Assembly: GCA_028688835.1 (NCBI GenBank)
Contig: JAQTXL010000003.1
Location: 1-44,010 of the forward strand
Direction: 5' to 3'
DNA length: 44,010 nt
Source: Candidatus Nanopelagicales bacterium
GTDB lineage: Bacteria > Actinomycetota > Actinomycetes > S36-B12
In this document: one piece after another, positions 20,426 to 41,175 of the stretch
Layout: each line of letters opens with the position of its first letter
How positions within the stretch are numbered: the first letter of the stretch is position 1
The notes under the pieces: generated by a model
Seen by the model: the letters and a program-made list of their open reading frames with translations, nothing else
Told to the model about the DNA's origin: nothing
Databases searched by the model: none
Translations under genes and position numbers: made by a program

Positions 20426-20524
20426 TCCCGGCAATATGCGTTGCACCGAATACCGCCATGCCGTTGAGAAGGTGTGACCACCTTTGCCGAATTCCATGCC
20501 GCAAATGAGCGGGGTCCTCCGAAG

Positions 20525-20562
20525 CGACAGAGGGCCCCTGATCTCTCAGGGACCCTCTGTCG
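20525..20562 (+). terminator. Strong hairpin in front of repeat copy 2
   Basis: CGACAGAGGG (20525-20534) pairs with CCCTCTGTCG (20553-20562); the stem continues through CCCTGA/TCAGGG with one mismatch. It could end transcripts from the TfoX-N gene and, being symmetric, from the opposite strand. There is no long T run. The same hairpin occurs before copy 4. Confidence 0.6.
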
Positions 20563-20730
20563 TACCGAACGTTCATTTAGTTGAACGTTCAATTTCGTAG
20601 CGGGGAGAAACTGAGGATGCACGATCACCGGGTTGCGTGCCCCGCGGGTTGCCCTCACAAATGATCATTCCTGCACCCCCCTCTGCACTCCCCTGGGGGC
20701 GCAAGCCTGCACCCCCGCCGCTGACTTTCA
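20525..20730 (+). repeat. Dispersed repeat, copy 2
   Basis: A full copy: terminator-like hairpin, then two GAACGTTC palindromes (20567-20574 and 20583-20590), the GTAGCGGGGAGAAAC core from 20598, GTGCA/TGCAC hairpins, and the CCGCTGACTTT end box. Its core is closest to copy 3 (both read GGGTTGCGTGCCCCGCG), while the hairpin and palindromes match copy 4. It ends ten bases after the HigA-like gene's stop. Bases 20426-20524 hold nothing else I can name. Confidence 0.87.
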
Positions 20731-20739
20731 TCAATGCGT

Positions 20740-21036
20740 TCAGGCGACTGCCTTGGGCTTGAGTTGGACCGTAAGCGTGGTGTCGAAGGCGCTGGCGATG
20801 CGCTGGAGGATCGGCAGAGTCGGCGTCGTGCCGCCGGCCTCAAAACGAGCAATCGCGGGCTGCGTCATGCCGGTCAGCTTTGCCAGGTCGCGTTGACTCC
20901 AACCGCGCCCCTCGCGCAGGCCACGAACCTGCTCCCCAAGCTCGAACGCGAGCTTGGCCGCGGCATACGCGGCCTCAACCGCCGAGTCGCCCGCGCGAGC
21001 GGCCTGCAAGTCTTCCCATGACGTGCGTGCCATCAC
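20740..21036 (-). CDS. HigA-like XRE-family antitoxin
   Basis: A 98-residue helix-turn-helix protein. An N-terminal helix (ARTSWEDLQAARAG) that probably covers the toxin is followed by an XRE domain: VRGLREGRGWSQRDLAKLTGMTQPAIARFEAG, positions about 38-69. Its start (GTG 21036 or ATG 21033, with GAGGAGGAG before it) overlaps the toxin stop, giving the toxin-first order typical of higBA. It should bind its own promoter, probably at the inverted repeat 21378-21393. It lies directly against repeat copy 2. Confidence 0.85.
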   Translation of the reverse strand: MMARTSWEDLQAARAGDSAVEAAYAAAKLAFELGEQVRGLREGRGWSQRDLAKLTGMTQPAIARFEAGGTTPTLPILQRIASAFDTTLTVQLKPKAVA

Positions 21037-21365
21037 TCCTCCTCATCCACAAAGTGCTCGGCCTGCATGCAAGCGAGCAACGACCTCTTCGCCCGCACCA
21101 CCTGTGCCCGATCCCTGTCCTTAGTCTTCGCGAAGACCGTCAGCAGGATGATCCGCCGCCCTGGGGCGATCCAGTGGGTGATCCGGATCGCCTGTCGACC
21201 CAGGTCGAACCGAGGCTCCCGCAGCTTGCCGTCCAGTTGCTTGGTGTACGGCTCGGCGAGCAGGACACCTCGCTCGGCCAGGAGGTCGACGTAGAACGCC
21301 GCATGACCGAACTCATTGCCCGCGAGCCCCTCGCGCCAGTCCCGGACTTCAGGCTCAAGTTCCAC
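21033..21365 (-). CDS. HigB-like RelE-superfamily toxin (Gp49-like)
   Basis: A 110-residue protein of the phage-derived Gp49/HigB group (PF05973 type): an N-terminal VRDWREGL helix, DLLAERGVLLAEPYTKQLDGKLREPRFD, and the core strand RITHWIAPGRRIILLTVFAKT, then a basic helix (RDRAQVVRAKRSL). Family toxins cleave mRNA on the ribosome. The first codon is GTG 21365, twelve bases after a TGGTAT -10 candidate. Paired with the XRE antitoxin gene downstream. Confidence 0.85.
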   Translation of the reverse strand: MELEPEVRDWREGLAGNEFGHAAFYVDLLAERGVLLAEPYTKQLDGKLREPRFDLGRQAIRITHWIAPGRRIILLTVFAKTKDRDRAQVVRAKRSLLACMQAEHFVDEEE

Positions 21366-21393: not shown

Positions 21394-21542
21394 CACTCGT
21401 GTGATGCCGCCGAGCCCATAGCCCGTGAGGCAACTGCACTCGGGGTAGTCCGGGTGAGTTGGAAGGTGAGGTGGGGAGTGGAGGGCCACACCAAGCGGCG
21501 CCATCCACCCTCGCTCGCCGACTGTCGGCCGCGAGGCCGCGC

Positions 21543-22508
21543 CTAGCCGTCCTGCATACCGGCTCCGGACACTTCGCTGAGTACGCGCTCGATGATGTCC
21601 GGAATGGCGTCGAGCGCGGCGTCGAGTAGCGCCTCCACGACAACTGCTGTCGCCGCGGTGTTGACGTCGATCGCGCGCTTCCACGCGTCGGGCTCGTAGC
21701 GCGTCAGCATCGAGAGTGAGAACAGGATCACCCACCACAGCATCATGGGATGCAGCGTCGCCGGATCGCCTTCCACGGCCGGCAGAAGTACCTCAGAGTG
21801 TCGATATGGCCGGCCCGGGCGCCGAATGGCCCACGGCACGGCTGGCGAGAAGTTCACTTGAACAGTTCGTCCATCGTCTGAGTAGTGCACGCTCTCCAGC
21901 TGGAAGCCGCGCAGATCGGGGTATGCGGTACATAGCTCCGCGTACGCAGCATCGTCGAACACATGACCGGTGAGCGGCACTGAATTGATTGCGTACAGAA
22001 TCCGTTCGCCTCGACTACCGCTGTGGTCGCTCACTAGATGCGTTCTTCGGCGCCGCAGTCGCGGCTCGGACAGTCCAACGTCGACAACCATCGACCAGAG
22101 ATCCGACAGCGTCTGCGACCGCAGCATTGGCGCTGAATGCAGCAGTCGGCTCAGTTCGGTGAAACTCGTTCCTGGCTTACCATTCCCCCACACCGTGGTC
22201 GAGAACAGATCGGTTCCGCCGGCGACGTTTGCGAAGTCAGCGTGGATCCCGTGTCCCCGCAGCCGGAGGCCGCTTTCCGCAGCCACGGCAATGGCGCGAC
22301 CAGCCTGAGATAGGCCATAGAAGAGGGGCAGAGCCCGGGTGGAGTGCTCCGCAAGAGCGGCCGTACGGAGCAAGTCTTCGGCCTGCTCGAGAGCGGACAC
22401 GAACACGTCGCGATCACTGTTCGCGACAATATCGCGGCTTCTCCACGCGCGGATCAGTCGCCACGACTCCTGTCGACGGCGCTGCTCGACCTCCCAGTAA
22501 GTGGGCAT
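21543..22508 (-). CDS. YaaC-like protein
   Basis: A 321-residue protein resembling the YaaC family. The features that point there are the helical segment ALEQAEDLLRTAALAEHSTR with PLFYGLSQAGRAIAVA, and near the C terminus LWWVILFSLSMLTRYEPDAW with long helices (NTAATAVVVEALLDAAL, IPDIIERVL). YaaC proteins are mostly helical, of unknown biochemical activity, and turn up near nucleases and other defence genes. It begins three bases after the membrane nuclease gene's stop, so the two are one operon. I see no catalytic motif. The family assignment is by eye and moderate. Confidence 0.65.
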   Translation of the reverse strand: MPTYWEVEQRRRQESWRLIRAWRSRDIVANSDRDVFVSALEQAEDLLRTAALAEHSTRALPLFYGLSQAGRAIAVAAESGLRLRGHGIHADFANVAGGTDLFSTTVWGNGKPGTSFTELSRLLHSAPMLRSQTLSDLWSMVVDVGLSEPRLRRRRTHLVSDHSGSRGERILYAINSVPLTGHVFDDAAYAELCTAYPDLRGFQLESVHYSDDGRTVQVNFSPAVPWAIRRPGRPYRHSEVLLPAVEGDPATLHPMMLWWVILFSLSMLTRYEPDAWKRAIDVNTAATAVVVEALLDAALDAIPDIIERVLSEVSGAGMQDG

Positions 22509-22511
22509 TGC

Positions 22512-23567
22512 CTAGCCCGGGACGGTCGCTGCGCGCTCGATAGCAGCGGCTAGCGCCAAGGTGTCGTTGGGCCCGTTCCATTTCACGACGCTGACCGTGC
22601 CGTCGTTCGCGAGCGGGAGAGGCACGTCGATCGGCATTGCCATAACTAACGGCACCGAGCCATGCGCCATGTGATTGCGTAGTAGGCGTGCGATGCCAAC
22701 GGCCGCTCGCGCCGCCTCCGGCCGACCAGCGTACTTGACCTCAATATCGACCCGCCTTCCCTTCAAGTCGACGGTCGCGTCAAAGCCTGTATCGCCAGAC
22801 TTTGTTGCGGGCGTCACATTGATACCCATTCCTCTCAGACCCGAAAGCGCGCTGAGGACCTCGGCCTCGTATGCCCGTGCTTTACCGCCGGAACGGTCTC
22901 GGGCCACTCCACTCGGCCGGGAGCTCGGCGCAGATGGATCCACCGCGCCCGGCGATTCCTCGGTGTCTGCCATTCGAGTGCGGAGTTCATCCAGCATGCC
23001 CTTCCATGCTGATCCCTGGACGTCATCGGTTGCTGTGTCGGCCAAGCGCTCCAGGATGCTGACTGCCACAGCGTCCGGGAACGGTTGCTGGCGCGTGTCT
23101 GGCGGGAAGGCACGGTCCGAGAACCATTCAAATCTGCCCCACCACTTGTCCGCTGCCGCGGCCAGCCGCTGGTGCTCCAACAGTTGTCGTGAAACGCGCA
23201 CTTGATTCGAGATGCCGACGAACGCGATGACTGCCGCGATGACCGCCGCGAGACCCGCAGCGCCCGGGCTACGAACAAATTCGCCGAGCCACGTCCGAAC
23301 GTTTCCCTCCCGAGCGGCGCCGATCCAGATTGCTATGCCTGCTCCGACGAATAGGCTGGCGATCGCCCCGAGGATAGCTACCCACAGGGGCGGCCGCCAT
23401 CGCTGACGGGCGGCTGAGCTCACGGCACGTCTACCTTGTCCGACGGGCGCACGAAGCGCAGAATCATGGGTCGCCGCAGATCCCTCAAGTGTCCCCCGTA
23501 GCGCTCGTAGCGAATCGCAGCGTAGCGCCGCAGCGCTGGTCCGCGAACAGAACTTGCTGGAGGTCAT
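22512..23567 (-). CDS. Membrane-anchored PD-(D/E)XK nuclease-like protein
   Basis: Up to 351 residues. Two hydrophobic segments (about 62-82 and 101-118) are followed by a helical linker and a C-terminal restriction-endonuclease-like domain: YEAEVLSALSGLRGMG, then GDTGFDATVDL with D263 and DIEVKY with E276 and K278, the D-x12-ExK core of Mrr-type nucleases. The domain should face the cytoplasm and could cut DNA at the membrane. The N-terminal 48 codons lack features; a GTG at 23423 just before the first helix is an alternative start. It is co-transcribed with the YaaC-like gene and divergent from the GHKL-nuclease gene. The family is not one I can name. Confidence 0.7.
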   Translation of the reverse strand: MTSSKFCSRTSAAALRCDSLRALRGTLEGSAATHDSALRAPVGQGRRAVSSAARQRWRPPLWVAILGAIASLFVGAGIAIWIGAAREGNVRTWLGEFVRSPGAAGLAAVIAAVIAFVGISNQVRVSRQLLEHQRLAAAADKWWGRFEWFSDRAFPPDTRQQPFPDAVAVSILERLADTATDDVQGSAWKGMLDELRTRMADTEESPGAVDPSAPSSRPSGVARDRSGGKARAYEAEVLSALSGLRGMGINVTPATKSGDTGFDATVDLKGRRVDIEVKYAGRPEAARAAVGIARLLRNHMAHGSVPLVMAMPIDVPLPLANDGTVSVVKWNGPNDTLALAAAIERAATVPG

Positions 23568-23693
23568 CGAGATCCGGCGCCACCAGCCTTGGACTCCGCT
23601 GGCTAGCGGACGAGTCCATTGGCGAAGGTCGGCATAGTGTCACTGTTGGCTGGAATCGCTTGCACGGTCAGTCCTGTCTGGAAGGATCACGGA

Positions 23694-25673
23694 ATGCCGC
23701 AGATCCGTCTCACCGCAGGCGACCCGCTCGTCGCTCGGCTCGCTCACGAGAGCAACCCCGTCAAGGCCGTGATCGAACTCATCTGGAACAGTTTTGACGC
23801 CGACGCAGATCAGGTTGCCGTCGAGCTCGACCGCAACGATGCCGGCGGCATCGAGGGGGTCACGATCATCGACGACGGCCACGGCATCCCAGCCGAGGCG
23901 ATCGAGGCGACATTCCGAGAAGTCGGTGAGTCCTGGAAGCGGGGCGCGACTCAGACACACGGGAAGGGCCGCCCGCTGCACGGAAAGATGGGTGAGGGGC
24001 GCCTGCGCGCTCTCGCCCTTGGAGAACGGTTCGACTGGAACACGACGGCGGTCTGCACCGACGGCGTGACGAGGTGGGTTCTCGTTTCGGGAACCGTAGA
24101 CTCGCGAAGCGACTGGTGGTACTCGGAGCCCACTGAGACCCATGCTGCGACGGGAACCACGTTTCGCGCGACCGGACGCCAAGGACTCGACCGCCTAGAG
24201 AGCGCCGCTACGGTGCAGCAGCTTGTAGCCACGTTCGCGCCGTATCTGATCGCACAGCCCTCGATCGAACTCACGTATGACGGCACCAAGCTGGATCCCT
24301 TGGAGCACCGCTCTCGGGACAAGGACGTGCCAATCACGTGGACGTTCGAAGGAACGTCTCACTCAGCACTGCTCACCATCATCGAATGGGACAGCGGCTC
24401 AGAACGCTCGCTCCATTTGTGCAACTCGGCGGGAGTCTCGCTCCTTGAGGGCCAGAAGCCTCCGGCGGCTGATTTTCCGTATACGGCATACGTGCGCTGG
24501 GATGGGTTCGACGATGACGCGCACTCGTGGGTGATCGCCGACATGGATCCGGATGCATCCGCGATCGGCGGCCTTCGACAAACAGTGATGCGAGAACTGC
24601 GCGACTACATTGACAGCCGGGAAGCCGAGGATCGACGTGGCCTCGTCCAAGTCTGGATCGACAACGGCACGTTTCCGTATAGCGGGGCTCCCGAGAATCA
24701 GGAGCAACAGCTCGAACGCTCTGCCTTCGAGCTCGTTGCAACAAAGATGCGGCGTTTCATTCCGACGCAGAAGCCGGCGCAGAAGTTGACGCTCGGCCTG
24801 CTGAAATCTCAGTTTCAGGCAAATCCCGGCGACTTGGCTGAACTCCTGCAGCACTGGGCGGGCCTGAACGATACGGACCGCGACGACCTCGATCGCCTGC
24901 TTCGCACTACAGGCTTCTCCGGTGTAATAAGGGCGTCGTCCAACGTGACCAAGCGGATCGCGTTCCTCGCCGCGCTCGAGCAGATGATTTTCGATCCCGA
25001 CATAGCTCCCGAGGTCGGCGAGACGGCGCATCTCCATCGGATCGTCGAGAAGGAACTATGGCTCTTCGGTGAGCAGTTCAACATGATGTTGAGCGAGCGC
25101 GGATTGACTGCTGTGTTAGAGCAACACCGCCGACTGCTTGGCGAGAACGTTATCGTCGGGGACGTAGTTCGCCGCCTTGATGGACGGACGGGACGAATGG
25201 ACCTCGTGCTGTCTGGAACTGCGAGAGAGCCTGGACGCCACCGCCACCTAGTCGTTGAGCTGAAAGCGCCGGACGTCAATGGCGGGCTAACAGAGCTCGC
25301 CCAGATCAAGTCGTATGCGCGCACTGTGACGCACGATCCGCGCTTCTCGAGTACGACAACGATCTGGGACTTCGTTCTAATCGTCCGAGAGATGGATCCC
25401 GAAGTGATCGTGGAGGTAAACCAAGCTCGACGGGAGCCGGGCCTGGCATTCGAGTCGGACGACGCTGGCCATTCAGTGCGGGTCTGGGTGCGTAGGTGGT
25501 CAGATATCATTGCCGAGGCTCGCGAGAAGCTCGATTACATCCAATCGCACTTGAAGTACGACCCATCAGTCGCTGACGCACGGGAGTATCTGAATCTTCA
25601 TCACGCAGAGTTTCTACCTGATGCGCTGCGGGGCACGATTGTCGACGTAGAGCGCCCGGACGAATCTCCTTAG
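23694..25673 (+). CDS. GHKL (Hsp90-like) ATPase with C-terminal PD-(D/E)XK domain
   Basis: A 659-residue protein. Residues 1 to about 200 form a GHKL ATP-binding fold: N-box ELIWNSFDADA (E28, N32), G1 box DDGHGIP (D60-G64) and a lid with HGKMGEG (96-102). The middle is helical and unassigned. Near the C terminus, RMDLVLSG (D503) and VVELKAP (E522, K524) make a D-x18-ExK nuclease core, similar in wording to Shedu/DUF4263-type nucleases. An ATP-driven clamp with its own nuclease fits a DNA-sensing defence protein. ATG 23694 has AAGGA before it; a TTG at 23619 is in frame. No partner methylase is present. Confidence 0.75.
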   Translation: MPQIRLTAGDPLVARLAHESNPVKAVIELIWNSFDADADQVAVELDRNDAGGIEGVTIIDDGHGIPAEAIEATFREVGESWKRGATQTHGKGRPLHGKMGEGRLRALALGERFDWNTTAVCTDGVTRWVLVSGTVDSRSDWWYSEPTETHAATGTTFRATGRQGLDRLESAATVQQLVATFAPYLIAQPSIELTYDGTKLDPLEHRSRDKDVPITWTFEGTSHSALLTIIEWDSGSERSLHLCNSAGVSLLEGQKPPAADFPYTAYVRWDGFDDDAHSWVIADMDPDASAIGGLRQTVMRELRDYIDSREAEDRRGLVQVWIDNGTFPYSGAPENQEQQLERSAFELVATKMRRFIPTQKPAQKLTLGLLKSQFQANPGDLAELLQHWAGLNDTDRDDLDRLLRTTGFSGVIRASSNVTKRIAFLAALEQMIFDPDIAPEVGETAHLHRIVEKELWLFGEQFNMMLSERGLTAVLEQHRRLLGENVIVGDVVRRLDGRTGRMDLVLSGTAREPGRHRHLVVELKAPDVNGGLTELAQIKSYARTVTHDPRFSSTTTIWDFVLIVREMDPEVIVEVNQARREPGLAFESDDAGHSVRVWVRRWSDIIAEAREKLDYIQSHLKYDPSVADAREYLNLHHAEFLPDALRGTIVDVERPDESP

Positions 25674-25710
25674 CCTCGACGCAACGTGGTCGAGCCCGGA
25701 CGGCTAGTGA

Positions 25711-26598
25711 TCACCATTTGCGGCTCATCGGCGCAAGTTTGTCCCACGCGGGCGAGCCCTGGAGCACCACTTCGACGATCTCGTCGGGGCGCACCAGGTC
25801 TACGTGTGTCTCCAACCCGGGATCCATGCCGAGACGGACCGCGACCAGCCGGCGCGCCAATTGGGGGTCACGCACACCGCGTCCGTGACGCGGACCCCGA
25901 GGAGGGAGCGCTGCGATGACCACCGCAGCAGTACCGATGCGGCCGAGTTGCTCTAGCGCAGGGTCAGGGAGCTTGTCGTCGAGCTGCCAGTAGATCGCTT
26001 CACCACCCCAATAGGTAAAGAGGCGCCAGAACCCGCTTCGGTGCTGCAATGACAGCCGCGACCCGGAGAAGCACACCCGATCCGAGCGCCCCGCCCTAAC
26101 GGCATACTCCAACGCGATTGGCCGCAGCCGTTCGGCGAGAGTCCTATCCATCGCGCCCACTGCGATGGCGGAGTCGAGGCGGAAGTTGACGAGTTCCGGC
26201 GTCAGCGGAAACATTCCGCGCTCCTGGATCGATTCCACTTCGTGCGGAAGTAGCCGCGTCGCGTGGTACAACGCGAGCGGGGTATAGCCGATCGCCTCGT
26301 CGATGACTGCGGTCTCCTCGCGGCCAAGCGCGATCTCGTCCGGGCCGATTGACGTCTCCTCGTTGTATTCAAAGTCGGCCAGATCCGGGCGCTCCCGAAT
26401 GACCTCGTCGACTGCGTAGCCAACTTCCCACGGCCAGGACTCCTGAACGTCCAAGTCGAGCAACACGTACTTCTCGCTCTCCGTGAGAGCTGCCAGCCGA
26501 TCGCTCCCGGACCCTCGTCCGTTGTTGAAGGCCGCAGTTTTGAACTTACCCGGGCATTTGAACTCACCGGGGCACCACAAATTTAGCATCATCGCCAC
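25711..26598 (-). CDS. Unknown protein, possible ADP-ribosyltransferase-like fold
   Basis: A 295-residue protein I do not recognise. LALYHATRLLPHEVESIQERG near the centre recalls the His-Gly-Thr type first motif of PARP/diphtheria-toxin-like ADP-ribosyltransferases, and LFTYWGGEAIYW later could supply the Tyr and Glu, so a mono-ADP-ribosyltransferase is possible but unproven. The N terminus holds a tandem CPGEFK-CPGKFK hexapeptide with two cysteines. The start is GTG 26598 with no strong ribosome-binding site. It is convergent with the GHKL-nuclease gene, 37 bases apart, and probably belongs to the same defence cluster. Confidence 0.6.
   Translation of the reverse strand: MAMMLNLWCPGEFKCPGKFKTAAFNNGRGSGSDRLAALTESEKYVLLDLDVQESWPWEVGYAVDEVIRERPDLADFEYNEETSIGPDEIALGREETAVIDEAIGYTPLALYHATRLLPHEVESIQERGMFPLTPELVNFRLDSAIAVGAMDRTLAERLRPIALEYAVRAGRSDRVCFSGSRLSLQHRSGFWRLFTYWGGEAIYWQLDDKLPDPALEQLGRIGTAAVVIAALPPRGPRHGRGVRDPQLARRLVAVRLGMDPGLETHVDLVRPDEIVEVVLQGSPAWDKLAPMSRKW
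26539..26574. repeat. 18-bp tandem duplication in the 25711-26598 gene
   Basis: Two 18-base units (26539-26556 and 26557-26574) match at 16 of 18 positions and encode CPGEFK and CPGKFK in frame near the N terminus of the protein. Cys-Pro-Gly twice, six residues apart, could bind a metal or simply be a recent duplication. Confidence 0.85.
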
Positions 26599-26681: not shown

Positions 26682-26797
26682 CTATTGCATCTCTACAAGC
26701 GCTTCTTCGATCGAGGTGGGGACTCCAGTTTGATTTCCTCGCTGACCTGCCCTACGCCCTGGTGACCTCTCTGAGTCTGGAGGTCAGTCATGCGGAA

Positions 26798-26876
26798 GTT
26801 CACTTAGTTGAACGTTCAAGACTGCCACTCCTGCACTCCCCGGGGCGCAAGGCCGCAGCTACCCCGCACACTTTTG
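26798..26876 (+). repeat. Internally deleted repeat copy
   Basis: It has the left part (GTTCACTTAGTTGAACGTTCAA, as in copies 2 and 4) and the right part (CTGCACTCCCCGGGGCGCAAG, then CCCCGCACACTTTT as a decayed end box) but lacks the GTAGCGGGGA core and the middle. It ends three bases beyond the AbiEii stop, the same placement as the full copies. Confidence 0.7.
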
Positions 26877-26879
26877 ATT

Positions 26880-27761
26880 TCACTCTCGCACCGATTTCTC
26901 GATCCGGTCGACGAAGGATTGGACTCGCAGGACAGCTTGCTCGACGTCGGGTGCGAGGACGAGTTCGTCGAGGCCTTCCATGGCCCGAACATATATCGAT
27001 GGCCAATGGGGCAAAGTAACGAGAACCGGCGGCCATTGATGCTTGCTCCGGCCAGCGAAGACCGCGACACACGCGGCACGCGTGTGGTCAAGGGGCTCGT
27101 CAACAAGCAGCGCTTCGAGGAGTTGCAGGTCGACCAGATCGTGTGCTCGATCATTCGCACGTGGCTCATCGACAGTCTCGGTGCAGGCGTGGAGTTTCTG
27201 CGCGACCTGCCAGGGCAACGTCATACACGGGACTGCCCCGCTGTTTGGTAGCCCCACGAGTGCGAGAGCTTCGGAACTGACCTTGTCGTAAGAATCGCCG
27301 TTACCCGCCTCGATCGGAGACACCTCGATCGGGACCGAGACGAAGGACTTGCCCTGGTAATTGATCTTCGCTGTGAATCGGAATGCATCAGAACCCAGCG
27401 CCGGAATCTCGAACGCAACCGGTGGCGTGAACACGGCAGTGAATCCCTCCCACCCTTGTGCACCTGCCTCGGCGAGCAGGTCGTGGACGGTAGCGATATC
27501 GCCACGAATGACTGCGTCAAGGTCCTTGGAGGTTCGAGATGCCGGAATACCGCGCCGCAGTTCGAGGGAGACGCCGCCCTTGACCAGCAGCAGCGGGTCG
27601 CCGTGGTCGTCAGTTAGCGCCGAGAAGAACTGGGTGACGACCAGAACGCCAACGTGCTGTTGGAGGCGACCAAAGACGATTCCCTCGCGCTTCGCAGCAG
27701 CTGCCAGACGATCTCGCAACGCCCGCAGATTCGAAGGGGACGCGTCATAGCGCGACGTCAT
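26880..27761 (-). CDS. abiEii: AbiEii-like nucleotidyltransferase toxin
   Basis: A 293-residue protein of the AbiEii/type IV toxin family. The nucleotidyltransferase core is LLVKGGVSLELRR followed by RTSKDLDAV, where the acidic pair would bind Mg-nucleotide, and the downstream segment QVAQKLHACTE with RANDRAHDLVDLQLL is the second family signature. Such toxins add nucleotides to tRNA 3' ends or otherwise halt growth during phage infection. The start overlaps the antitoxin gene by four bases. The deleted repeat copy lies just beyond its stop. Confidence 0.87.
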   Translation of the reverse strand: MTSRYDASPSNLRALRDRLAAAAKREGIVFGRLQQHVGVLVVTQFFSALTDDHGDPLLLVKGGVSLELRRGIPASRTSKDLDAVIRGDIATVHDLLAEAGAQGWEGFTAVFTPPVAFEIPALGSDAFRFTAKINYQGKSFVSVPIEVSPIEAGNGDSYDKVSSEALALVGLPNSGAVPCMTLPWQVAQKLHACTETVDEPRANDRAHDLVDLQLLEALLVDEPLDHTRAACVAVFAGRSKHQWPPVLVTLPHWPSIYVRAMEGLDELVLAPDVEQAVLRVQSFVDRIEKSVRE

Positions 27762-28327
27762 CTACGTCTCCCACCATTCGTGCCACGCACGTCGATGCGA
27801 GTGCGCAATGCACGTGCTTCGTCCCGCCGCAGATCACCCTGAGCTTCGGCTTGATCGACCGCCAGTCGAAGTTGGTAAGGGTCGGTCCCTCCGGCCAAGC
27901 AGTCTCGGACCGTACGGGCAACTGTGGTGACGGGAATATCGTCGACCTCCGTAACATCGCCCAACGCAAGGTCTCGGCGGTGCAGGCGATACAGCTCGCC
28001 ACCGGCACCGCGAGGGTGATTGGCGCGCGGCACGGTCAGGTGAATGCGCGATGGGTTGACGTCGGATAGTCCGTGCAACACCAGCGCCGACTCGTCGGAG
28101 ACCACGCCCCTGCCCAGCGTCCAGGCAACCGCCTCAGCCAGATCGTCATGCCGGGTGCGCGGCAAGATGGGCACCCGATAGGCACCCCGGCCCACGCGCT
28201 CTAGGCGCCCACGGGCAGCCATCACCCGCAGCTGGGCCGGATCTATGCCAAGCGCTCGGGCATCACGCGTGGTGATGTATCCGTGCTGCTCCACGGCTCG
28301 CTCGAGCACCCGATCCCTCACATTCAT
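27758..28327 (-). CDS. abiEi: AbiEi-like antitoxin
   Basis: A 189-residue AbiEi-type antitoxin. An N-terminal winged helix (ITTRDARALGIDPAQLRVMAARGRLERVGRGAYRVP) leads into the C-terminal domain with SDESALVLHGLSD, IHLTVPR and DIPVTTVARTVRDCL, all family hallmarks. It should repress its own promoter at the inverted repeat just upstream. ATG 28327 lies seven bases from a TACGCT -10 candidate with no ribosome-binding site. It is coupled to the toxin gene (ATGA). Confidence 0.87.
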   Translation of the reverse strand: MNVRDRVLERAVEQHGYITTRDARALGIDPAQLRVMAARGRLERVGRGAYRVPILPRTRHDDLAEAVAWTLGRGVVSDESALVLHGLSDVNPSRIHLTVPRANHPRGAGGELYRLHRRDLALGDVTEVDDIPVTTVARTVRDCLAGGTDPYQLRLAVDQAEAQGDLRRDEARALRTRIDVRGTNGGRRR

Positions 28328-28336
28328 GTGCTAAAG

Positions 28337-28353
28337 CGTATCAAACTGATACG
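28337..28353. promoter_or_regulatory. AbiE operator: perfect inverted repeat
   Basis: CGTATCA-AAC-TGATACG, a 7+3+7 perfect inverted repeat starting ten bases upstream of the AbiEi start. On the minus strand it overlaps TACGCT, a -10 candidate, so AbiEi binding would block its own transcription. This matches the known autoregulation of AbiE systems. Confidence 0.65.
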
Positions 28354-28387
28354 GATAAGCACACAAAAGCAGGCCAGCACCTCTCCG

Positions 28388-28535
28388 GAATCATGGGTGC
28401 AGATTGCCCTGGGCTGCACTCCCCCGGGGTGCAACGAGACACAGATCCAGTCCTGCCGCCTCCTGCACCGGGGGTGCAGCACGCGGGTACACCGGGTGCA
28501 GGCTGCGCCTACTTTCCGCCTACTTTCACCTGTCG
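28388..28535. repeat. Degenerate GTGCA/TGCAC hairpin cluster
   Basis: Several short palindromic blocks such as CTGCACTCCCCCGGGGTGCA and CTGCACCGGGGGTGCAG resemble the hairpin part of the dispersed repeat, without its GTAGCGGGGA core. The end reads GCCTACTTTCCGCCTACTTTC, a short duplication. It may be a decayed extra copy next to copy 3. The gap 28328-28840 contains no gene. Confidence 0.55.
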
Positions 28536-28565
28536 GGAGAGGCAGAAAATCGTACCGAAATAGGA

Positions 28566-28593
28566 CAAGACCCCCCAGATTTGGGAGGTCTTG
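28566..28593 (+). terminator. Hairpin at the edge of repeat copy 3
   Basis: CAAGACC with CCC pairs with GGG and GGTCTTG in a ten-plus base-pair stem. The sequence differs completely from the hairpins before copies 1, 2 and 4, but its position does not, so the structure rather than the sequence appears to be kept. Confidence 0.6.
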
Positions 28594-28737
28594 AACCTAA
28601 TTTGGTAGCGGGGAGAAACTGACAATGCACGATCACCGGGTTGCGTGCCCCGCGACTTGCCCTCACAAATGATCATTTCTGCACCCCCTTCTGCACTCCC
28701 CTGGGAGTGCAACCCTGCACCCACCCCGCTGACTTTC
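28566..28737 (+). repeat. Dispersed repeat, copy 3
   Basis: A full copy: hairpin, core GTAGCGGGGAGAAAC from 28605, GATCACCGGGTTGCGTGCCCC, then TGCACTCCC/GGGAGTGCA hairpins and the CCGCTGACTTT end box. The GAACGTTC palindromes are absent. It lies about 100 bases beyond the histidine kinase stop and about 240 bases upstream of the AbiEi start. Confidence 0.87.
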
Positions 28738-28840
28738 GCCCGGATCACGCGGCCGTTCCACCAATGAATCGTGCGTCCAGGGATTGCGATGGCAGGAGAC
28801 TCAGTGGGGTGGACGATACCTCGATCGTAGTTCCGCGCGC

Positions 28841-38574: not shown

Positions 38575-38704
38575 CAACCCGGCGCCGACGGCATCACGAT
38601 GCAGGCCATCGCGCAACTTGCCAAGTACGGAGCGCGGCCACGCCGTCGACCGGATGTGACCATTTACTGTCGCAGACTACCGCACGCGCAACGCGATCCT
38701 CCGA

Positions 38705-38912
38705 CACGACGAAGGGCCCCTGATCTCTCAGGGACCCTCGGTCGTACCGAACGCTCAACTAGTTGAACGTTCACTTTTCGTAGCGGGGAGAAACTGAGGA
38801 TGCACGATCAGCAGGTTGCGAGGTCAGCACGATGCCCTCACGAACGGTCACTTCTGCACCCCCTTCTGCACCCACCTGGGGGTGCAGACTCGCACCCCCT
38901 CCGCTGACTTTT
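38705..38912 (+). repeat. Dispersed repeat, copy 4
   Basis: A full copy: hairpin GGGcCCCTGA/TCAGGGaCCC as in copy 2, a palindrome pair (GAACGCTCA, TGAACGTTC), core GTAGCGGGGAGAAAC from 38780, CTGCACCC/GGGTGCAG hairpins, and the CCGCTGACTTTT end box. Its middle (GGTTGCGAGGTCAGCA) is like copy 1. It fills the gap between the CopA gene and the convergent nucleotidyltransferase gene; bases 38575-38704 have no other feature. Confidence 0.87.
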
Positions 38913-41097: not shown

Positions 41098-41101
41098 ACC
41101 G

Positions 41102-41175
41102 TAGCGGGGACAGGATTTGAACCTGTGACCTCTGGGTTATGAGCCCAGCGAGCTACCGAGCTGCTCCACCCCGCG
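41102..41175 (-). tRNA. Initiator tRNA-fMet (CAT anticodon)
   Basis: A 74-base cloverleaf: acceptor CGCGGGG with CCCCGCT, an unpaired first base (C1 opposite T72) and three consecutive G:C pairs in the anticodon stem (CTGGG/CCCAG) around CAT, all initiator features; the sequence is of the mycobacterial type. The T-arm is CAGGTTCAAATCCTG. CCA is not encoded. Its 3' end (TCCCCGCTAC on the minus strand) is shared exactly by the dispersed repeats. Confidence 0.95.

Follow-up and report, generated by a model that had tools for sequence, protein, structure and literature searches.

A paraMORC3-type GHKL ATPase-nuclease in a probable mobile cassette of a row ending at a tRNA-Met gene in a Candidatus Nanopelagicales genome

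The window, by which we mean the whole stretch of DNA analysed here, is a single contig of 44,010 bases in a 2.3-Mb genome of 220 contigs (96.7% complete) of a Candidatus Nanopelagicales bacterium, and the subject of this study is a group of four genes at 21543-26598, among them a gene for a GHKL ATPase fused to a nuclease, together with the row of presumed mobile cassettes at a tRNA-Met gene in which they lie. A preliminary description of this DNA had read the four genes as one new anti-phage system, and its four open reading frames were all found again where it had placed them. On the minus strand, a gene for a YaaC-like protein of 321 amino acids (aa; 21543-22508; PF14175, E 5.3e-26) lies beside a gene for a probable membrane protein of 351 aa with two transmembrane stretches and a PD-(D/E)XK-type motif (22512-23567), hereafter the membrane nuclease, and three bases separate the stop codon of the latter from the ATG of the former, as had been claimed. 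The plus strand carries the gene for a paraMORC3-type GHKL ATPase-nuclease of 659 aa (23694-25673), hereafter the GHKL-nuclease, assigned by hidden Markov model, alignment and structure model; its start was taken as ATG 23694 because relatives align from that ATG, the longest open reading frame opening at TTG 23619. The fourth gene, again on the minus strand (25711-26598), encodes a 295-aa protein of no assigned family which had been labelled ART-like. The enclosing gene pairs had also been named rightly, namely a Gp49/HigB-like gene with a helix-turn-helix (HTH) gene (20740-21365) on one side and AbiEii/AbiEi (26880-28327) on the other.

The GHKL-nuclease matched HATPase_c_3 in Pfam (E 1.3e-14, 54.9 bits against a cut-off of 25), and the ATP-site residues N32, D60, G62, G64, G97, G100 and G102 were invariant in 30 aligned GHKL-nucleases, with E28 conserved in at least 90% of them. 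The N-terminal half of an AlphaFold2 model (mean predicted local distance difference test score, pLDDT, 84.0; predicted template modelling score, pTM, 0.56) matched the ATPase modules of Hsp90, MORC and MutL by Foldseek and a second aligner. The highest Z score was that of the mouse MORC3 ATPase (Z 19.0 over 277 residues, root mean square deviation 3.9, model residues 7-313), a span which we take to include the S5-type domain, and E. coli MutL had Z 15.9, so that the GHKL fold of the preliminary description was borne out. In the nuclease half, D503, E522, K524, Q537 and Y541 were invariant in the same alignment. The motif D503-x18-E522-x-K524 was present as described earlier, as was D263-x12-E276-x-K278 in the membrane nuclease, and both proteins thus carry a motif of the PD-(D/E)XK type.

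Proteins of this architecture were named paraMORC3 in 2008; according to the accessible part of that paper they combine GHKL and S5 domains with a RecB-like restriction-fold domain, a subset of them standing alone, and were reported to be widespread among proteobacteria and Bacteroidetes (Iyer, Abhiman and Aravind, 2008; PMC2292703). As far as that text goes, the GHKL-nuclease shares with them the GHKL and S5-type ATPase module, a putative C-terminal nuclease domain with D-ExK and the want of constant neighbours, and it differs in belonging to an actinobacterial-type genome and in its seat within a tRNA-Met cassette. We assign the GHKL-nuclease to paraMORC3, which would add a member to a defence family already known, and the earlier statement that no named system was concerned holds for the gene set but not for its core protein. 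A further relative in plan is VcSduA of Vibrio cholerae, described in 2025, which, in the portion of the report available, acts alone against phages in E. coli and protects V. cholerae from phage X29, loses its activity by E27A and by K557A and is classed by its authors as Shedu type I-D (PMC12137116). Both proteins have an N-terminal GHKL domain and, here as judged by motif, a C-terminal PD-(D/E)XK domain; E27 and K557 of VcSduA correspond to E28 and K524 of the GHKL-nuclease by their place in the domain plan and not by an alignment of the two. Unlike VcSduA, the GHKL-nuclease had no Shedu model match in PADLOC 2023 and no DUF4263 match in Pfam at E up to 1, and because of the latter it was filed as paraMORC3 and not as Shedu, although a profile miss does not exclude the domain. 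By analogy with VcSduA, and within what is accessible of that report, the anti-phage role proposed earlier for the GHKL-nuclease gains support and seems to us quite likely. Residues 25-112 also matched the family of the BbrUII/HgiDII restriction enzymes (NCBIfam NF050001, E 3.1e-12), but the 45.9 bits fall far below the curated cut-off of 550, and unlike those enzymes the GHKL-nuclease has no methyltransferase visible in its cassette; N6_Mtase was not found in the genome of the window, and its one N6_N4_Mtase lies on a different contig.

Among 59 related genomes, the GHKL-nuclease was found in the window's own genome only. Some match was present in 55 of 396 sampled genomes of the phylum; besides the own genome only two of them (G419 and G132) showed near-full cover, the remaining matches being short and nearly all within the ATPase part. 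Relatives also occurred in 72 of 72,556 plasmid records, 35 of them with at least 80% cover and all with less than 60% identity, and 538 stretches were confirmed in a collection of genomes from 84,980 species, where the best relatives were Actinomycetota with up to 49% identity (Arthrobacter, Flexivirga). In viral contigs a single-protein query returned no close relatives of the GHKL-nuclease, and a query with alignment A1 returned 29 loci with relatives.

The three other proteins are less well placed. The YaaC-like protein scored 92.2 bits with PF14175 against a gathering cut-off of 27; its AlphaFold2 model was poor (pLDDT 56.8) and gave nothing usable in a fold search, and among the literature matches listed for YaaC nothing was relevant by title. 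In three viral contigs a lone YaaC gene was seen on the strand opposite to tail-like neighbours (L135 5956-7002, L136 5962-7002 and L137 1050-2102), a usual spot for an added phage gene, the tail-gene labels being our own judgement; these three settings suggest that YaaC can act alone. The membrane nuclease had no Pfam match, and it is called a membrane protein on the basis of two hydrophobic stretches judged by eye. Its D263, E276 and K278 recur in a protein of the Corynebacterium plasmid pTET3 with 30% identity; other than this, relatives were scarce, with 3 of 72,556 plasmid records in all, one weak match in 395 other genomes and none in viral contigs. Relatives of the 295-aa protein occur in 12 plasmid records (31, 30 and 27% identical in those compared), and H112xT114R and W197GGE200 are conserved in four sequences. 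Because most relatives match from residue 46 onward, its start codon may lie further in. The ART label was not confirmed, no family scoring over its cut-off and no PDB chain matching at E up to 10. In one viral contig (L134 3397-6570) a relative of this protein was seen near a gene for a Z1-domain/SNF2-type ATPase (Z1 E 1.8e-21), a defence-like setting.

The same strand and the three-base spacing of the membrane nuclease and YaaC-like genes, together with the nuclease motif kept in a relative, would fit an independent pair of genes whose products detect infection at the membrane and cut DNA. The closest nuclease relative, on pTET3, has no adjoining YaaC gene, and none of ten YaaC loci (five of 17 plasmid records, one genome with short flanks and four viral contigs) has such a nuclease beside it, a comparison limited by the small number of nuclease relatives. 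A two-gene unit of this kind is therefore a tentative idea that we hold to be possible, and the less probable view of the pair.

The four genes lie in a row of 41 kb made up of about five cassettes and ending at a tRNA-Met gene. A repeat search found a direct repeat of 139 nt at 20591, 28599 and 38774, with a further copy at 109-246; its conserved part is a block of 133 bp, hereafter also called att, which opens with the core GTAGCGGGGA, the end of the tRNA-Met gene. This gene (CAT anticodon, 41101-41175, minus strand, by ARAGORN, its junction compared with that of genome G008) has as its last 10 nt the shared core, GTAGCGGGGA on the plus strand. All copies of the block in the window are on the plus strand. 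Bases 1-112 seem to belong to the end of another cassette, C0. Cassette C1 (113-20596) starts with the first copy (113-245, 125 bits in nhmmer) and closes with a left-end type sequence, a hairpin with the palindrome TTGAACGTTCAA (20510-20596, no strand assigned), of which a second copy with 87% identity lies at 38692-38777 (alignment A8). Cassette C2 (20597-~26819), which holds the HigB/HTH pair and the four genes, starts with the second copy (20597-20729, 128 bits, repeat family D1). Cassette C3, which runs to 28604, is parted from C2 by a decayed copy (26784-26874, with the partial repeats D7 and D3 and a BLAST hit at 26784) and carries on the minus strand the AbiEii toxin (26880-27761, PADLOC E 9.8e-80) and the AbiEi antitoxin (27758-28327, PADLOC E 7.1e-67); the AbiE genes and the following block (26880-28738) are 87% identical in G005. 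Cassette C4 (28605-38779; third copy at 28605-28737, 127 bits) encodes a sensor kinase, a multicopper oxidase and a heavy-metal-type P-type ATPase, and cassette C5 (38780-41100; fourth copy at 38780-38911, 116 bits) reaches the tRNA gene. By their sequence, cassettes open with the 133-bp block, of which the first 10 nt equal the tRNA end, and finish in a left end rich in hairpins. Rfam gave nothing at the repeat beyond matches below the gathering score. Inside the block (window 20617-20664) we noticed GGGGAGAAACTGAGG followed by a frame of 15 codons, MHDHRVACPAGCPHK, nearly identical in the copy at 28605, which is perhaps a leader peptide, or just part of the site.

In C2, the block is followed on the minus strand by an HTH antitoxin-like protein of 98 aa (20740-21036, HTH_3 E 2.5e-15) and a HigB/Gp49-like toxin of 110 aa (21033-21365, PF05973 E 1.6e-8); an ARAGORN call of a tRNA-His inside the HTH gene (window 20907-20999) is probably false. 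This part matches three other arrays at 84-86%, with matches ending at 21398, 21397 and 21399, and a fourth, in G016, where the match stops earlier, at 21082. Since the homology with other arrays stops at 21397-21399, the four genes were probably added to a toxin-antitoxin end common to other cassettes. Toxin-antitoxin genes abut the block elsewhere as well, as seen in 65 copies with enough downstream sequence and with names from Pfam: 13-25 nt separate the block end from a relative of the C2 HTH protein in 11 copies, HigB being next in 10; a second HTH antitoxin lies 6-9 nt away in seven, with its HigB-like toxin in six; and AbiEii at 52 nt and a ParE-like toxin at 24-29 nt were found in three copies each.

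The block is not confined to the window. A query of 231 bp found it in the genomes of 14 of 59 relatives and in none of the 24 from other families of the host's order. Within the host family, a query of 136 bp found it in 25 of 85 genomes, representing seven of 14 genera, and in five of the nine genomes of the genus. From twelve genomes, including that of the window, 67 distinct copies scoring 50 bits or more were collected, and 57 of them have GTAGCGGGGA. Fifteen contigs bear at least two copies (60 in total), and in every one of these contigs the copies point the same way, which would have a chance of 2^-45 if the copies were independent, as copies of a tandem row are not. The tRNA-Met gene ends the row in the window, G008, G016 and G486, the last with ten copies within about 51 kb ahead of it. 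Bases 1-112 of the window are 100% identical in G005, where a different cassette follows, and 99% identical in G008, where they are joined straight to the tRNA-Met gene. The G008 junction was considered as an empty chromosomal site and rejected; it is the end of C0 joined to the tRNA and therefore shows the absence of C1-C5, not of every cassette. When 61 junctions (57 copies and four tRNA ends) were compared with flank matches at E 1e-8, 242 pairs matched on the left, a count inflated because the left ends fall into few families, 54 on the right and seven on both sides. G020 and G486, which belong to two genera, share one right flank at 99% identity across 400 nt without any match on the left (L198 ~8066, L231 ~10022), a recent cassette exchange. 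Junctions change at GTAGCGGGG, the tRNA-Met end. Because flank pairs rarely match on both sides and a right flank is shared at 99% across two genera, the two sides of a junction reassort, and have done so recently, at GTAGCGGGG, the row as a whole ending at the tRNA.

Two Phage_integrase proteins are encoded in the genome of the window, both resembling Xer in length and sequence, and of the integrases listed for the nine scanned genomes of the genus none lay on the row-bearing contigs taken. A profile of thirteen genus integrases, run against 3,206 frames taken from the window and the rows, found two short remnants, in L233 (about 300 bp past a block) and in L241, and in nine further genomes a piece of 110 codons lay just past a block in G502:C38. 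In G020, an open frame of 701 codons begins 39 nt from GTAGCGGGG and is followed by a decayed block (G020:C139, L262 3493-5595), and a relative of 695 aa with 70% identity begins as a frame 38 nt, and with its first in-frame ATG about 116 nt, from a tRNA-Met end (G020:C250, L271 1159-3240). Further relatives lie about 1.1 kb from tRNA-Met in G001 (32% identity) and about 1.4 kb from a tRNA-Met-like end in G012 (by sequence, cut by the locus edge), and in G503 fragments of the beginning of the protein are encoded beside a tRNA-Met-like end and beside a block copy. R224, K274, R357, H381 and Y392 are invariant in six aligned members of the family; they correspond to the R, K, H/KxxR, H and Y with which tyrosine recombinases usually catalyse. 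The two G020 proteins have an HTH-like extension (HTH_17, 25.6 bits against a cut-off of 27, for that of G020:C139). This tyrosine recombinase of about 700 aa is a likely candidate for the enzyme that would act on the 133-bp block.

Some features of the rows might instead be expected of miniature inverted-repeat transposable elements (MITEs) or repetitive extragenic palindromic (REP) elements, or of spots of homologous recombination, which would not be site-specific insertion sites: the rows first taken held no intact recombinase, and repeats of 70-90% identity could recombine by homology. Such an origin does not agree with the single orientation in every multi-copy contig, with junctions that change at GTAGCGGGG or with the tRNA gene that ends the row in four genomes, and it became less likely still because a recombinase gene was found beside the tRNA or a junction in G020; we regard it as very unlikely.

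The preliminary description had gone further than a single defence protein, in proposing one ATP-gated system of four proteins with two nucleases, one of them at the membrane. The four genes do adjoin, the three-base spacing of two of them is real and both nuclease motifs look intact. Co-occurrence was examined by tblastn (E 0.01) in 80 loci of the genome collection, which are the best 80 of the 538 stretches, seven plasmid loci and two other genome loci, with flanks of up to 9 kb and many shorter. A YaaC, membrane-nuclease or ART-like gene was beside the GHKL-nuclease relative in none of these 89 loci, nor, within the flanks available, in any of the 29 viral-contig loci; none of three plasmid relatives examined for the 295-aa protein had the other genes by tblastn; and, with the YaaC loci described above, each gene has relatives without the others. 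The idea of a four-gene anti-phage system is not supported by these counts, a lack of conserved co-occurrence being one of the refuting outcomes that the preliminary description had itself named, and is in our view highly improbable; the genes are mixed cargo.

What surrounds the GHKL-nuclease elsewhere is defence-like and mobile but without a fixed partner. Apart from its own relatives, the commonest neighbour cluster was present in 10 of 90 loci, and the families met in 65 open reading frames no more than 400 bp away, taken from at most 40 dereplicated genome loci, had mostly one member each (25 of 163 PADLOC and 25 of 50 Pfam families). They include models for Type I methyltransferase, HamA, UzuA, ArdC, relaxase, integrase and SNF2-helicase, several systems being possibly matched by one protein. 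As separate observations, an ApeA-like gene (L021 6-1163; PF18862 E 9.6e-16) precedes a paraMORC3 gene by about 330 bp, and an apparent type I restriction set lies near the paraMORC3 gene in L054, L069, L070, L072, L074, L076, L080 and L090; such clusters occur in 7 to 10 loci, mostly of related Streptomyces, the type I assignment being a matter of judgement, and in seven of these loci there is also a gene of peptidase type, the one scanned with Pfam being YgjP-like.

Taken all together, we consider it very probable that C2 is one mobile cassette in a row inserted at the 3' end of the tRNA-Met gene, with the GHKL-nuclease as lead defence cargo that would act without the other three genes. We propose that the large tyrosine recombinase, whose gene some relatives have next to tRNA-Met or to a junction, acts in trans on cassettes without their own, cutting in the GTAGCGGGG core and reading the TGCACCCC-type repeats of the block. 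Toxin-antitoxin genes would hold the cassettes in place, and the HigB/HTH pair beside the block, recurrent in other cassettes, probably stabilises C2. In the GHKL-nuclease, ATP binding may close a dimeric GHKL clamp on DNA, as in VcSduA, MORC and MutL by analogy, and the closed clamp would license the C-terminal nuclease to cut phage DNA, with no need of the three neighbouring genes. The rest of C2 is defence-type cargo, in which the membrane nuclease and the YaaC-like protein are maybe a separate two-gene unit and the 295-aa protein a further solo gene.

Several results weigh against this account. For the nuclease half of the GHKL-nuclease no solved structure matched, matches reaching residue 395 at most, and its sole Pfam match was HSDR_N_2 with E 0.034; the fold of this half rests on the motif and on predicted secondary structure because structure matches barely cover it. 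C2 itself lacks an att copy between its HigB and YaaC genes, and its junction with C3 has decayed. Four of the nine genomes of the genus (65-87% complete) have no block copy, the left-flank matches are, as said, too many by their few families, and the assemblies are drafts in which rows break at contig ends. The recombinase scored 21.7 bits with Phage_integrase against a cut-off of 27.1, and its class as a tyrosine recombinase therefore rests on the aligned residues. Moreover, its family was found in seven of the 85 family genomes and in only five of the 25 that bear the block, two of these five with short fragments; the other 20 were without a match, including the window's genome, as was G486, which is 100% complete and has ten block copies. 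From the 20 genomes without a match it follows that the enzyme, if it is the right one, often acts from elsewhere or was lost. The finding of the recombinase slightly strengthened the reading of C2 as a mobile cassette with the GHKL-nuclease as lead cargo.

It also strengthened a wider proposal, which we favour by a modest degree: the tRNA-Met rows would be an integron-like gene-exchange system of one actinobacterial-type family, in which short cassettes share the block, often have a toxin-antitoxin gene beside it and for the most part lack a recombinase of their own. A large tyrosine recombinase, which some genomes keep beside tRNA-Met, would insert them in trans and pass them from genus to genus, and defence cassettes like C2 would belong to the stock. 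If this is true, there is a second route besides integrons for stocking and shuffling defence and toxin-antitoxin cassettes, one that can be searched for in any genome by its 133-bp signature and tested at the bench through the candidate recombinase. The locus is also a warning that adjacent defence-type genes need not be one system, since accretion at a tRNA gene assembled these.

The row resembles an integron in organisation, as a cassette row with toxin-antitoxin genes and a repeat beside the 3' end of a gene, but a classical integron with attC sites is hardly credible here, given that the core is a tRNA gene end, that the cassettes are multi-gene and read in both directions and that IntI (TIGR02249) exceeded its cut-off in none of 40 genomes, a count without a positive control as 14 control genomes gave none either. 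Closer are the additive flexible genomic islands, in which, by the accessible parts of the reports, a tRNA gene is the target of successive cassettes and repeats of the tRNA end are found (Alteromonas, PMC4119200; Actinomarinales, PMC7771536; Methylophilaceae fGI-2, PMC10872708). The window shares with them, as there described, the cassette row bounded by a tRNA gene and the repeats of the tRNA end; it differs in the 133-bp block common to cassettes across seven of 14 genera, in the toxin-antitoxin genes that abut the block and in the recombinase of about 700 aa beside the tRNA in some genomes. With tycheposons, so far as the available text on them extends (PMC10872708), it has in common the tRNA-Met border and the cargo islands, and the tyrosine recombinase of some relatives may be a further likeness; no recombinase was found in the row of the window, and its cassettes are short, many and block-sharing. 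The available portions of the literature on such rows contain no naming of the 133-bp block or its family. Additive tRNA islands are thus known, and what is new here is a block common to genera, the toxin-antitoxin genes adjoining it and a large recombinase by the tRNA in some genomes.

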